Source: Candidatus Eiseniibacteriota bacterium
Lineage (GTDB): Bacteria; Joyebacterota; Joyebacteria; Joyebacterales; Joyebacteraceae
Assembly (NCBI GenBank): GCA_030630395.1
Contig: DAOVNE010000118.1
Coordinates: 1 to 5,415, forward strand
Direction of reading: 5' to 3'
Length of the DNA stretch: 5,415 nucleotides
Shown: positions 1,122 through 5,415 of the stretch, one piece after another
How positions within the stretch are numbered: position 1 is the stretch's first letter
Layout of the letters: each line of letters opens with the position of its first letter
Position numbers and translations under genes: made by a program
The notes under the pieces: generated by a model
Seen by the model: only the letters and a program-made list of their open reading frames with translations
Told to the model about the DNA's origin: nothing
The model's database searches: none

Positions 1122-2672
1122 CTATTTCAGAAGCAGCATCTTCTTGCTGGACTCGATGCCGTCGGCCTTCATGCGGTAGAAGTAGACGCCGGTGGCCATC
1201 TGCTCGCCGTTCGAGTTGAGTCCATCCCATGTGACAGTCCGCTCGCCCTCGGGCTCGAAACCGTCAACGAGTGTCGCCACGAGCCTACCTGAGACATCGT
1301 AGACCTCGATGGTCACGTGACTGCCATCCGCCGGAACCTCGTAGTGGATGGTCGTCTTCGGATTGAACGGGTTCGGCACGTTCTGGCGCAAGCCGTGCTG
1401 CATCGGCGTGACCTCGTCCGGAACGTCAGTTCCGGACGTCATGTCGAGCCGGAAAGCCAGGTCGATCGATTGTCCGGCCATCTCATGCATCGGTGGGTAG
1501 ATGAGTTCCTCCCACGGACCCATGTACGGCTCCATGCCCATGCCCCAGACCGCGTCATCGTTCCAGTGGTCGAGCGTCGTCTTCCAACCGAATAGAGTCT
1601 CCGCGTCGAGCGGTCTTGCCTGGACATCCAGCCAATAGACGATCGCGGAATCCGGCGTGCCGACCTGGTGGAACGCTCCCCCAGCCGGAATGTCGAACGA
1701 GTAGAGCCAGCAGGTCCAGTCGGCCGGGAACATATACTGCTCCGGTGGATCCATCCAGCCTTCCTCGATCCCGCCTTGCCAGACGTCGGCCGTGAACTCC
1801 CCCGGCATGAAGATCCAGAGCCACAGAAGCTCACCCGGCATGCTGTAGCCCGTGGGGCTCTCATCCGCTGGGATATCCTCATGGATACTCAGGATGAACT
1901 CAACCGCCGTCGGATCCCCTCCGAACGGCAGATTGTCACCGAGCCACGATCCCCAGACATCGATGTGTGTGAGTCGCCCAGGCGCCTCACAGAGGAAGTC
2001 GTCAGCGAGAACGAAGGGATTCGGAGGATTATCCGAAGCATTGATGTCAATGCCCGTCGTGCTGAGGTCCGGTCTCTGCTCCCACTTCCACTCTTCGATA
2101 CCATTGTCGATCAGGACAAGATGGTCCTCGACCTCTCCGTCCATCGCCGCGCCGGTGAAAGTCAGACCGCCGTTCGAACTCATGCGGAAGCGCGAGTACG
2201 TGAGCCCGGGTACGGCCATGGCCGGCACCGGGAAGTTGAAGACCGTCGACACACCCGGGGGCGCCCACGCGCTGAACAGAATCTGGTCGCCCGCCTCGAC
2301 CCAACTGCCGTCGTAGCCGAAGTCGATCCACGCGTCGATGTAGCCTCCCGATTGACATGTGGTCATGTCAATCGCAACGCTGGCTGTGCTGCCTGGGGTC
2401 AGATTCGTTGTGAACGTCACACCGTCTTCGTCATCCGATGTCATGAGGTCGTCACCCGTGGACGCCGAGTCCGGCTGGCCGTCCTGTTCGCCATCGATGA
2501 GCTGCCCCATCTTGTACGCCAGAGTGAACGCATGAAAGGCGCCATTGCTCGCGGCGTACGTCGGATAGCCCGGATCCGGTGCATCACCGAAGTCCTCGCC
2601 GATCTGCGCGAATGCCGGCGCAGCAAAGACCATTGCCAGAACAACGATGATGAGAACCTTGTAGCAGCGCAT
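1122..2672 (-). CDS. Secreted protein with GEVED-type domain and C-terminal FlgD/Ig-like domain
   Basis: This complete 516-residue gene starts at ATG 2672, with AGGGAGGG three bases upstream. Residues 1-22 are a signal peptide (MRCYKVLIIVVLAMVFAAPAFA, cut before QIGED). Residues ~26-188 match the GEVED-type extracellular domain: DFGDAPD at 28-34, an acidic DDEDGV segment, a YIDAWIDFGYDG strand region and the signature DGEVEDHLVLI at 178-188. Residues ~195-412 form a second domain with LADDFLC and IDVWGSW motifs and many Trp, resembling an uncharacterised domain often found in exported proteins of candidate phyla; its exact family name is not certain from reading alone. Residues ~428-516 are a FlgD/Ig-like domain: LRQNVPNPFNPKTTI, then VYDVSGRLVATLVDG, then TGVYFYRMKADG and the end KKMLLLK. 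This resembles type IX secretion C-terminal signals, but the cognate secretion route is unproven in such lineages. It has its own promoter candidate and terminator, so it is probably monocistronic. No catalytic motif was seen; role unknown, probably surface or extracellular. Confidence 0.93.
   Translation of the reverse strand: MRCYKVLIIVVLAMVFAAPAFAQIGEDFGDAPDPGYPTYAASNGAFHAFTLAYKMGQLIDGEQDGQPDSASTGDDLMTSDDEDGVTFTTNLTPGSTASVAIDMTTCQSGGYIDAWIDFGYDGSWVEAGDQILFSAWAPPGVSTVFNFPVPAMAVPGLTYSRFRMSSNGGLTFTGAAMDGEVEDHLVLIDNGIEEWKWEQRPDLSTTGIDINASDNPPNPFVLADDFLCEAPGRLTHIDVWGSWLGDNLPFGGDPTAVEFILSIHEDIPADESPTGYSMPGELLWLWIFMPGEFTADVWQGGIEEGWMDPPEQYMFPADWTCWLYSFDIPAGGAFHQVGTPDSAIVYWLDVQARPLDAETLFGWKTTLDHWNDDAVWGMGMEPYMGPWEELIYPPMHEMAGQSIDLAFRLDMTSGTDVPDEVTPMQHGLRQNVPNPFNPKTTIHYEVPADGSHVTIEVYDVSGRLVATLVDGFEPEGERTVTWDGLNSNGEQMATGVYFYRMKADGIESSKKMLLLK
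2349..2374. repeat. Perfect 11-bp inverted repeat inside a coding region
   Basis: CGATTGACATG (2349-2359) and CATGTCAATCG (2364-2374) are exact reverse complements separated by the 4-base loop TGGT. It lies in the GEVED-domain gene where it encodes I-D-M-T-T-C-Q-S (residues ~101-108). It could be an mRNA hairpin or a binding site for a dimeric protein; no function can be assigned. Confidence 0.7.
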
Positions 2673-2830: not shown

Positions 2831-4684
2831 CTACCGGGGGCGGGTCATCCACTTGTGGATGCCTTCCGACGCGATCTTGGCGTCGGCAATCGCGGTGACT
2901 GCATCCAGGTTCGTGTTGACGATGTCCCCTCCGGCAAAGACTCCAGGGAGCGAGGTCATGCCGTTCTCGTCAACGCTGACTTTTCGCATCTCATTGAATC
3001 GGAGTTTCTCAAGCATATCCTCGGGAAGGAACGAGAAGTCCGATCCCTGTCCGATGGCCTCGATGATGGTCGTCCCATTGAGCACCATCTCCTGGTCCTC
3101 AAAGAACGTAGGCGCGAATTTCCCCTCATCATCGAACACGGACTTCACCTTCATGCACAGGAGTCCGCTCACGTTGCCGGCGTCGTCGAGCAGGACCTTC
3201 TTCGGACCCCACGCGGGATTGAACTCGACCGCCTCTTCACGGGTCTCCTCTATCTCCTCCTGGGTCGCTGGCAGCTCATCCCAGTCCTCGAGCGAGGCCA
3301 TGCGCGTTACGACCTTCTCCCCTGGGTATTGCATGTGCTGAAGCCTGAGGGCCTCCCTCGCGACGTCCATCGCCACGTTGCCGCCACCGATCACGATGAC
3401 TTCTTTCGTGACCTTGCTCATGGACTCCGTCTTGTTTTTCCTTAGGAAGTCGAGCGCGAGCCCGCACTTGTCCGCATTCTCAACTCTCGTGGAGCGGCTC
3501 ACGGTCAGACCGATGCCGAGATAGACGGCGTTATACTCATCGAGCAGCTCCTGGAAACGCACGTCCGTTCCCACCTTCGTGTTGTACCGGAACTCCACAC
3601 CGAGTGACGCAACATGATCCGCATCCTTCTCGATGCTCTCCAGGGGCAGCCTGTACCTGGGCGGCCCAATGCGTATCACACCACCGCCACCAGAAAGCTC
3701 GTCGAACACAACGACGTCGTCACCCATGAGCCTCAAGAAATACGCCACCGAGAGCCCGCCGGGGCCCGCTCCGATGACCGCCACCTTCTTCCCGGTCGGC
3801 TCGCCCGGCTGCTGCTCGAGAGTTGACTTGAAGTCCTGGATCGTGTCGGCCGTATACCTCTTGAGCCATCTGATCGCCAACGGCTCGCCCCTCAACGTGA
3901 GCGAGCACGCGTCCTCGCAGTGCTTCATGCAGACGCGCCCGCAGATCGACGGAATAGGGTTGTCCTCGTATATCTTCCGGAGTGACTCCTCCGGATCGCC
4001 GTTGTAGATGGCCCCAATGTAGTCCGAGATCTTCATGTGAGCCGGACAGGCTTCCTCGCAGAGCCGGCACTCCAGACACCGCTCGGCCTCGCGCACCGCC
4101 TGTTCCCTGTTGTAACCCACGACCTGCTCGATGAAGGAGAGCGTCCTCTCAGCGGGCGGGATCTCCGGCATGGGGACGCGCTCGGGCTCAAAGAGCGCGT
4201 ACGAGAGGTCGGACGAGAAGCCTTCGTAGTCCTGCTTCCGGTGCGTGAGGCTCGCCTTCATGATCGAGTAGTTCTCGTCCGGGAGAAACGTCCCCTCGTC
4301 GGTCTTCTCATCCTTCGGCGTGAAGACGAAGGTATCCGTATCGAAGTGGATATGGAAGTAGTCCCTGGAGAGCCTGAGCGAACCCGGCGGGCAGATATCG
4401 ATGCACAGACCGCAGAAACAGCACCTGCCGTAGTCGAGCTTCGGGCGTTCGTTCTTCTCGCCCGGGCCGACCTCAAGATCGGGAACCTCGATCATCTCTA
4501 TCGCCGTGTTCGGGCAGATGTCCACGCAGTTCCCGCATCCGGTGCACTTGTCCCAATCGTTCAGGTGGAAGCCCCTGTACCTCAGAGCGGGCTCCTTCTT
4601 CTCGAACGGATACCTGAGAGTCTTAGGCTTCTTGAAAAGAAACCTGGCTACCTTGAACGAACTGAGCAAGCTGCCTTTGGCCAT
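2831..4684 (-). CDS. Fused NuoI-like ferredoxin / GltD-NfnB-like FAD-NAD(P)H oxidoreductase
   Basis: This complete 617-residue iron-sulfur flavoprotein is probably the electron-input subunit of a complex I-type enzyme (inference). Residues 1-~125 are NuoI-like: the basic N-terminal helix with RYPFEKK and RYRGFH, two [4Fe-4S] motifs CxxCxxCxxxCP (Cys 47, 50, 53, 57 and 88, 91, 94, 98), and the NuoI-type ending DTFVFTPKDE. Residues ~180-285 resemble the N-terminal iron-sulfur domain of GltD: Cys 203, 206, 209, 213 and Cys 248, 252, 256, 260 within ICGRVC...CEDAC. Residues ~299-345 hold the FAD-binding GAGPGG (305-310) and a GPPRYRLP motif. Residues ~429-475 hold a second dinucleotide fold (GGGNVAMD, 433-440) for NAD(P)H. 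Residues 582-598 carry the C-terminal FAD motif VFAGGDI...AVTAI. Plain NuoI is usually well under 250 residues and GltD about 450-500, so the length fits a true fusion, continuous in one frame. It follows nuoD by 28 bases, with AGGGAGAG ten bases before ATG, so it is co-transcribed. No membrane segment is evident; it would act on the cytoplasmic face. Domains are certain, physiological role is inferred. Confidence 0.95.
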   Translation of the reverse strand: MAKGSLLSSFKVARFLFKKPKTLRYPFEKKEPALRYRGFHLNDWDKCTGCGNCVDICPNTAIEMIEVPDLEVGPGEKNERPKLDYGRCCFCGLCIDICPPGSLRLSRDYFHIHFDTDTFVFTPKDEKTDEGTFLPDENYSIMKASLTHRKQDYEGFSSDLSYALFEPERVPMPEIPPAERTLSFIEQVVGYNREQAVREAERCLECRLCEEACPAHMKISDYIGAIYNGDPEESLRKIYEDNPIPSICGRVCMKHCEDACSLTLRGEPLAIRWLKRYTADTIQDFKSTLEQQPGEPTGKKVAVIGAGPGGLSVAYFLRLMGDDVVVFDELSGGGGVIRIGPPRYRLPLESIEKDADHVASLGVEFRYNTKVGTDVRFQELLDEYNAVYLGIGLTVSRSTRVENADKCGLALDFLRKNKTESMSKVTKEVIVIGGGNVAMDVAREALRLQHMQYPGEKVVTRMASLEDWDELPATQEEIEETREEAVEFNPAWGPKKVLLDDAGNVSGLLCMKVKSVFDDEGKFAPTFFEDQEMVLNGTTIIEAIGQGSDFSFLPEDMLEKLRFNEMRKVSVDENGMTSLPGVFAGGDIVNTNLDAVTAIADAKIASEGIHKWMTRPR

Positions 4685-4712
4685 TGTTCTCGTTCTCTCC
4701 CTGACTGGACGG

Positions 4713-5415
4713 CTACCTGTCTATCTCCGGGGCCACGACGTAGAGGCTTATCATGATATTACCCACGTCGGAGATGCTCGCTCCCTTGAGCGCCTTCTCG
4801 AGGATCGTGAGTCCGTGCGTATAGGAAGGCGTCCTGAAATGAACCCTGTACGGCTTGTCCCCACCGTCGCTCACGAGATAGAGCCCGAGTTCCCCGCGCG
4901 ATGACTCGCAGCGCACATACGTCTCGCCCTCCGGAATGCGCCACTTGAACGGGTTCGGAACTCTGTTGTATACCTCACCCTTGGGCATCGCGTCCAGGAG
5001 CTTGAAGATCATGTGAACGCTCTCGATCATCTCATTCCGTACGATCCAGATCCTCGAGTACGCATCGCCGTCTTCGCTGGTGTGAACGTCCCAGGGCACC
5101 TTGTCATACGCTGCGTACGGATCGATCTTCCTGACATCGTCGTCCACACCCGTCGCCCTCAAGACCTGCCCGACCGCGCCCATCGCGAGGGCATCTTCTC
5201 TCGTGACGACGCCTATGCCCTCCGCCCTGTCCGCGAAGAGCCGGTTGTTGAAGAACGTCGCATCGTAATCCGGAACACAGCCTCCGATGGAATGGAGCGT
5301 GGAGACCAGCCTGTCTTCGAACCCCTCCGGGAAGTCCCTCCGCACGCCGCCCGGCCAGATGTAGATGTGATACACCCTGCCGCCGGTGAGCTCCTCGAAC
5401 CGATCGAGAATGAGA
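4713..5415 (-). CDS. nuoD: NADH-quinone oxidoreductase subunit D (NuoD), C-terminal part
   Basis: The frame is open from the right window edge to TAG at 4713; 233 residues are visible and the N-terminus is missing. The GTG at 5375 is an internal Val, not a start, since the match continues upstream as ILDRFEELTGGRVYH. Family features in order are FEELTGGR, then YIWPGGVRRDFPEGF, then GVVTREDALAMGAVGQVLRATGVDDDVRKIDPY (visible in parts), EDGDAYSR, and the C-terminal block SSRGELGLYLVSDGG, PYRVHFRTPSYTH and a final PEIDR. NuoD (49-kDa/Nqo4) is the peripheral-arm subunit that, with NuoB, forms the quinone-reduction site. The related group 4 [NiFe]-hydrogenase large subunits have a C-terminal Cys-x-x-Cys that ligates nickel; it is absent here, which supports complex I. 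The last segment reads SLYVVAPEIDR instead of the usual SLDPVMGDVDR-like ending. The quinone-site His and Tyr known from family members lie upstream of the window and cannot be checked. Confidence 0.95.
   Translation of the reverse strand, partial: LILDRFEELTGGRVYHIYIWPGGVRRDFPEGFEDRLVSTLHSIGGCVPDYDATFFNNRLFADRAEGIGVVTREDALAMGAVGQVLRATGVDDDVRKIDPYAAYDKVPWDVHTSEDGDAYSRIWIVRNEMIESVHMIFKLLDAMPKGEVYNRVPNPFKWRIPEGETYVRCESSRGELGLYLVSDGGDKPYRVHFRTPSYTHGLTILEKALKGASISDVGNIMISLYVVAPEIDR

Follow-up and report, generated by a model that had tools for sequence, protein, structure and literature searches.

In Pyrococcus furiosus, the MBS complex, a sulfane-sulfur reductase, is described as having an Mrp-derived membrane arm, two antiporter-like subunits and a stand-alone subunit of 208 amino acids, MbsN, that accepts electrons from ferredoxin (Protein Data Bank (PDB) entry 6u8y; PMC7684303). 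The MBX complex of Thermotoga maritima, with 13 subunits, is also called ferredoxin-dependent, and the passages of its description considered here mention no NAD(P)H module (PMC9431562). The DNA analysed here is a stretch of 5,415 nucleotides (the window) from Candidatus Eiseniibacteriota bacterium (GenBank assembly GCA_030630395.1, contig DAOVNE010000118.1). It encodes a protein of 617 amino acids (positions 2831 to 4684, minus strand) in which an MbsN-like domain is joined to an FAD- and NAD(P)H-binding module like those of NfnL and GltD, and in relatives this gene ends an operon with the same subunit set as P. furiosus MBS. We consider it rather probable that the fusion oxidises NADH as the input arm of an MBS-type complex which reduces sulfane sulfur and pumps ions.

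The fused gene has an ATG start and an unbroken frame (the coordinates include the stop codon). It lies 28 bases (4685-4712) behind the frame of an MbsL/NuoD-like subunit that is truncated by the contig end, the window being the entire contig, leaving the C-terminal 233 amino acids (4713..5415, minus strand), which end in APEIDR and carry no DPCxxC motif. A first-pass annotation of this DNA had read a single 617-codon frame behind a nuoD-like gene, with 28 bases between them, in which a NuoI-like dicluster part is joined to an iron-sulfur, FAD and NAD(P)H module; this was borne out, on the minus strand. The NuoI/MbsN-like domain (residues 1-123; 4316..4684) has two [4Fe-4S] sites (C47 C50 C53 C57 and C88 C91 C94 C98). 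It is followed on the same strand by a Fer4_20 domain (residues 168-290; 3815..4183) with two more (C203 C206 C209 C213 C248 C252 C256 C260) and by the FAD- and NAD(P)H-binding module of NfnL/GltD fold (residues 291-617; 2834..3814). Pfam and NCBIfam profiles matched the dicluster at residues 13-123 (TIGR01971, 4e-25, under its cut-off), Fer4_20 at 184-283 and Pyr_redox_2 at 299-599. The best PDB match of the N-terminal domain was 6u8y_N of P. furiosus MBS (1.3e-28). In the predicted structure the NuoI-like part is of middling to low confidence, and structure matches were taken for residues 163-617. All 16 cluster cysteines are conserved in each of the 74 relatives whose frame spans at least 560 amino acids. 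The earlier proposal, an NAD(P)H input arm condensed into a single chain that has four [4Fe-4S] sites and an FAD domain, is supported.

An assembly error joining two genes, a doubt raised with the first description, is ruled out, because 74 of 80 related loci carry the fusion as one frame of at least 560 amino acids. These loci come from a scan of one genome per species, which gave 136 relatives, of which the best 80 were kept; since the scan used peptide patterns of the NuoI-like part and kept the best 80 of 136, it is uninformative on unfused MbsN. The frame is clipped by contig ends in L078, L079, L080, L095 and L122 and broken in L088 (genome G002, contig C78), where the gene is split into two overlapping frames. 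Residue counts given here refer to subsets of the 80 loci picked by length and score (74 fusions, 70 MbsL and 62 MbsJ).

The same fusion and its neighbours, for which a database search had been proposed, were found widely. The window protein had 7700 protein matches; among the 120 listed, which include the window's own cluster, the 119 beyond that cluster are 610-640 amino acids long, with 70-83% identity and 99-100% query coverage, far more than chance would give. The nearest named relatives are metagenome-assembled genomes of Candidatus Eisenbacteria (95% and 78%). By record title, the best 80 of 136 relatives include Fermentibacteria, Zixibacteria, Cloacimonadota, KSB1, Planctomycetes, WOR-3, Bacteroidales, Spirochaetes, Izemoplasma, Myxococcota, Mesoaciditoga and others. 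Two loci with archaeal titles (L048 and L078) lie on contigs of 4-5 kb and may be mis-binned. In a search of 61 genomes, whole, broken or split copies were found within the window's family in G000, G002, G004, G007, G008, G013 and G016 and outside it in G032, and G001, of the same genus and 99% complete, had no fusion copy at E 1e-60. With a fusion that carries Tyr-Arg-Arg in its second Rossmann motif (see below) as query, matches at E 1e-105 came from at least 16 of 386 genomes, a lower bound because three candidates per genome were scored; the 16 loci overlap the earlier ones in at least two cases (G008 and G032).

The architecture is already present in NCBIfam as PRK13984, 'putative oxidoreductase', a name without function or complex. 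This model (NF010590) covers residues 2-614 of the window protein at model positions 7-607 of 611, and the full-length score of 675 bits misses the equivalog threshold of 946 bits; the protein is homologous and of the same architecture. The clade-2 fusion of L084 exceeds the cut-off with 951.5 bits. Among 14 control genomes, T. maritima alone matched PRK13984, above the curated cut-off; because of this genome match, T. maritima MBX probably ends in the same fusion. In the open-access literature we found no description of this fusion or of an NADH-fed MBS; subscription papers were outside the scope of that search.

The rest of the operon can be read in G004, a 94-95% relative with an estimated completeness of 100% (locus L034). 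It starts with rex, MrpE, MrpF, MrpG, MbhD and MbhE/MnhB, the small Mrp subunits being supported by Pfam, and continues with a NuoK-like subunit in the place of MrpC, two antiporter-like subunits, NuoH-, NuoB-, NuoC- and NuoD-like subunits and, last, the fusion. The order A-B-C-D-E-G-H-H'-M-J-K-L-fusion is kept in all 50 loci where six or more subunits precede the fusion, and 38 loci of the 80-locus set carry at least 11 of the 12. MbsL stands directly upstream of the fusion in 73 of the 80 loci; in six of the other seven no more than 133 bases separate the fusion frame from the contig start, and the remaining one, L101, does have MbsL. It also adjoins the fusion in 16/16 loci of the scan with the Tyr-Arg-Arg query. 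In locus L040 (G008), within an operon of the Tyr-Arg-Arg type, MbsH and MbsH' may be fused, judging from the length of a 1125-aa frame and its single hit.

The comparison with PDB covered five parts, the N-terminal domain of the fusion and four subunits of G004. The best match was 6u8y_L for L (1.6e-95; next Thermus Nqo4, 2.8e-72), 6u8y J for J (4e-64; next a plant NDH subunit, 3e-33), 6u8y M for M (3e-57; next MBH, 2e-17) and 6u8y X for H' (8e-82; next MBH, 1e-60). By these matches and the gene order, the neighbouring complex is of the MBS/MBX type and not complex I, and the fusion occupies the place of the stand-alone, ferredoxin-accepting MbsN. The first-pass annotation had taken the neighbour for complex I and the protein for a replacement of NuoEFG; both ideas give way, since the five tested parts are closer to P. 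furiosus MBS and the quinone-site Tyr is absent from 70/70 MbsL. Canonical complex I (NuoA-N) and the 11-subunit form have homologous B, C, D, H, I and antiporter subunits, whereas the complex described here has Mrp membrane subunits, a CxxC in the B-like subunit, no quinone Tyr and another electron-input protein.

No canonical complex I was seen in G004, which answers part of an earlier call to look for NuoEFG and a separate NuoI; NuoE and a separate NuoI were not covered by the profile search. Across the window's family (20 genomes, G000-G019) NuoG nowhere exceeded its cut-off, though all 20 have weaker NuoG-like matches. The three PF01512 matches of G004 are two RnfC and a NuoF homolog of 602 amino acids that scores below the NuoF cut-off and has a GltD-like frame next to it. 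Its NuoD-like genes are the MBS-type copy and one [NiFe] hydrogenase. A canonical complex I with a replaced N-module is ruled out by residues (Tyr87, CxxC) and by the best PDB matches.

In P. furiosus MBS, MbsJ has a loop three residues shorter than in MBH and a CxxC (C25, C28) together with C93 and C123, the loop length and CxxC leaving one cluster iron free; His38 and Tyr87 of the complex I quinone site are absent, and C85 and C385 of MbsL are relics dispensable for activity (PMC7684303). The corresponding MbsJ stretch is 31 residues long in 62 of 62 loci, as in P. furiosus, and 34 in 7/7 hydrogenase-type J subunits, six of which come from the same loci and were classed by sequence, the other coming from G004, where the large subunit has NiFe motifs. 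The stretch of Escherichia coli NuoB is also 31 residues long, with a tandem CC where MBS has CxxC. Loop length therefore tells MBS apart from hydrogenases but not from complex I, for which the only distinguishing mark is CxxC in place of tandem CC. The four MbsJ cysteines are conserved in 60, 62, 62 and 62 of 62 sequences. The loop with CxxC, the lack of a NiFe site and the lack of a quinone Tyr are thus shared with P. furiosus MBS. MbsL differs in the residual cysteines: both C85 and C385 are lost in 42 of 70 loci, which form the window's clade, and both are kept in the other 28.

Tyr87 has no equivalent in any of the 70 MbsL, so that the quinone His/Tyr pair occurs in none of them. The His38 equivalent is absent from 48 of 70, including the window's clade, and present, without the Tyr, in 22 (in the range L085 to L121). 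In G004 neither a gene of the MqnA/D family nor a menD match was found, other quinone routes lying outside that search, and a quinone acceptor is therefore disfavoured there. These data bear on the possibility that the operon encodes a complex I without NuoEFG, acting as an NADH:quinone oxidoreductase. Automated family names (NuoB/C/D/H/I), the 22 MbsL with His38 and the NuoB-like length of the MbsJ stretch would fit such an enzyme, whereas the universal absence of Tyr87, the absence of His38 from the window's clade, CxxC in place of tandem CC, the nearness of 5/5 tested subunits to MBS and the quinone gene search in G004 speak against it, and we regard it as very unlikely. By analogy with MBS, the acceptor would be polysulfide or an organic di- or trisulfide.

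A hydrogenase is ruled out for the MBS-type copy. The complete NiFe cysteine set (L1 RxCxxC, L2 DPCxxC) was not found in MBS-type MbsL, whose C-terminal ends, where printed, are without DPCxxC. Only the second NuoD-like gene of G004 (L134, contig C32), which served as positive control, is a hydrogenase; with RICGIC and DPCYSC in the NuoD-like subunit and a molybdopterin subunit, it belongs to an Mrp-linked group 4 [NiFe] hydrogenase resembling formate hydrogenlyase. Six loci (L049, L050, L052, L056, L057 and L077) have a second set of complex-I-like genes 3' of the MBS operon on the same strand, with M- and J-like and in some cases also L- and H'-like members; by the J subunit these sets are of hydrogenase type.

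GltD and NfnL are NADPH enzymes, and we take Tyr-Arg-Arg in the second Rossmann motif to be the site of the NADPH 2'-phosphate. NADH-specific Rossmann enzymes have an acidic residue after the second strand. At the Tyr-Arg-Arg position the window protein has Ser464-Leu465-Glu466 (3287..3295, minus strand), directly after strand 459-463 of the structure model. This x-Leu-Glu motif is found in 72 of 74 fusions, the two exceptions, both from Mesoaciditoga, keeping Tyr-Arg-Arg, and all 120 listed matches of the window protein have Ser- or Cys-Leu-Glu. The alignment contained 25 comparison rows, of which two are themselves fusions; 22 of the 23 non-fused relatives have Tyr-Arg-Arg. The remaining one, N_L012_1 (L012, G059 C49, 698 aa), has Ser-Leu-Glu, possibly through an independent cofactor switch. 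NfnL of NfnAB, GltD, StnC and NfnA (5jca, 6s6s, 8oh5, 9bov) also have Tyr-Arg-Arg where the window protein has x-Leu-Glu. Among the 120 matches listed for the Mesoaciditoga fusion, 116 have Tyr-Arg-Arg; since these and two of the 74 fusions keep it, cofactor use varies within the family. Among the 16 loci of the scan with the Tyr-Arg-Arg query, five have Tyr-Arg-Arg (L139-L142 and L144), nine Ser-Leu-Glu, and two were not read. Both Mesoaciditoga loci carry, about 850 bases beyond the fusion, one more NfnL-like frame that is not fused (12675-14090 in L110 and 4034-5452 in L109) and has about 472 amino acids.

In a tree of 77 rows, built without the motif columns, one branch (support 98) sets all 65 fusions apart and another (SH-aLRT 100) sets apart the 46 x-Leu-Glu rows, which suggests a single fusion event followed by a single switch from Tyr-Arg-Arg to x-Leu-Glu. 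The rows were 41 of the 74 fusion frames, the window, 12 of the 16 scan loci, 11 proteins from the Mesoaciditoga query and 12 outgroup rows. N_L012_1 was left out, having been a poor fragment in an earlier tree with 13 outgroup rows; both trees were quick searches without bootstraps.

Rex senses NADH/NAD+ and binds TTGTGA-N6-TCACAA. A rex gene heads eight of 37 testable operons (L043 and L058 among them), and five more operons lie too close to a contig end. A Rex-box-like site with at most one mismatch stands near the start in seven of the eight rex-headed operons; in L034 the site ahead of the operon is at 5497-5514. When two mismatches are allowed, a site is present in four of the remaining 29 operons and in 34 of 1152 control windows. 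Given the x-Leu-Glu motif and Rex, the donor would be NADH rather than NADPH. The replacement by x-Leu-Glu as a single switch on the tree and the Rex boxes ahead of rex-headed operons are new here. The same complex with the same acceptor might be fed by NADPH in the x-Leu-Glu clade as well. Several top structure matches of residues 163-617 are titled as NADP(H) or NADPH (5jca, DPD), GltD and NfnL use NADPH, and many fusions keep Tyr-Arg-Arg; the window's clade, however, has lost both Arg and has Glu after the second Rossmann strand (72/74), and rex heads several x-Leu-Glu operons. Taken together, this makes an NADPH donor there fairly unlikely.

The fusion further differs from NfnL in its MbsN domain, its membrane-complex operon and a residue of the Fer4_20 domain. 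Where NfnL has a Glu near the proximal cluster, beside its bifurcating FAD, Lys275 is found in 74/74 fusions; among the 23 non-fused relatives 17 have the Glu and six have Lys. This residue bears on whether ferredoxin stays the donor at the MbsN domain, in which case the protein would be a pump-attached ferredoxin:NAD(P)+ oxidoreductase or would confurcate ferredoxin and NADH into sulfur reduction. Such a role would agree with the ferredoxin use described for P. furiosus MbsN (PMC7684303) and T. maritima MBX (PMC9431562) and with the description of Mbx as a ferredoxin:NADP+ oxidoreductase (PMC6349859). It is quite unlikely in our estimate: the Lys at the site of the NfnL Glu argues against it, though Lys also occurs in non-fused relatives, and a route purely from ferredoxin to NAD would skip the MbsJ site together with its coupling.

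With NADH as the preferred donor, electrons would pass, by analogy with MBS and NfnL, to FAD, to the two [4Fe-4S] clusters of Fer4_20 and to the two of the MbsN domain, all in one chain, and from there to the three-Cys [4Fe-4S] cluster in MbsJ and to sulfane sulfur, reducing an S-S bond. Coupling would run through MbsL, M and H' to the Mrp-type membrane arm, which may pump Na+ or H+ as in MBS. An anaerobe could in this way use sulfur to recycle NADH to NAD+ while building up an ion gradient, and the complex might work in series with Rnf; since G004 encodes RnfC, ferredoxin electrons could reach the complex by way of Rnf and NADH. The potentials are about -320 to -280 mV for NADH and about -270 mV (standard) for polysulfide, the latter more favourable at low sulfide. 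With so small a driving force the reaction would be reversible, and relatives of complex I are able to run backwards, so that an ion gradient might instead drive NAD+ reduction by sulfide or persulfides. Rex-box-like sites would suggest induction at high NADH, which fits NADH disposal, and we hold the reverse direction to be highly improbable.

Several points weigh against an NADH-oxidising, MBS-type function. To the loop length of NuoB, the His38 equivalents, the Ser-Leu-Glu of N_L012_1, the Tyr-Arg-Arg of the Mesoaciditoga-query matches, the rex linkage limited to 8/37 operons and the sites with at most two mismatches in 4 of the other 29 must be added that, of the operon, the window itself shows no more than the fusion and a portion of MbsL, the other genes being known from relatives. 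A search for MbsH' in the window's own assembly, which is 74% complete, gave only paralogs of 34-37% identity, on contig C76, which also carries a NuoD-like fragment. A low ion yield per electron pair is expected because NADH and polysulfide lie close in potential, and we know of no activity for any member of the fusion family.

Downstream of the fusion and on the same strand, the window encodes a protein (1122-2672, minus strand) with DUF7901, GEVED and a C-terminal FlgD_ig/Por_Secre_tail sorting domain. A long minus-strand frame running off the contig edge (3-977) resembles, from the impression of its sequence, a parallel beta-helix surface protein.

Among complex-I relatives without NuoEFG, a search for a common donor of the 11-subunit form is reported not to have succeeded (PMC11238625). 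Here a donor module is covalently attached and NADH is the candidate; therefore, the question of what feeds the complex becomes testable, for this branch, with one purified complex, for which T. maritima is a cultured source. A wider interpretation is held more tentatively, as plausible without being probable: the complex-I superfamily may have a second, NuoEFG-independent NADH arm, which would have arisen by one fusion of an NfnL/GltD-type NADPH enzyme with MbsN and one switch from NADPH to NADH. The outcome would be a quinone-free respiratory chain, encoded by one operon, which carries electrons from NADH to sulfane sulfur, pumps Na+ or H+ and has reached anaerobes of many bacterial phyla. 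If this is true, the tree orders the steps, with fusion first and the cofactor switch second, and MBS-type sulfur respiration would not be confined to ferredoxin-driven organisms and would be open to NADH-producing anaerobes of many phyla.

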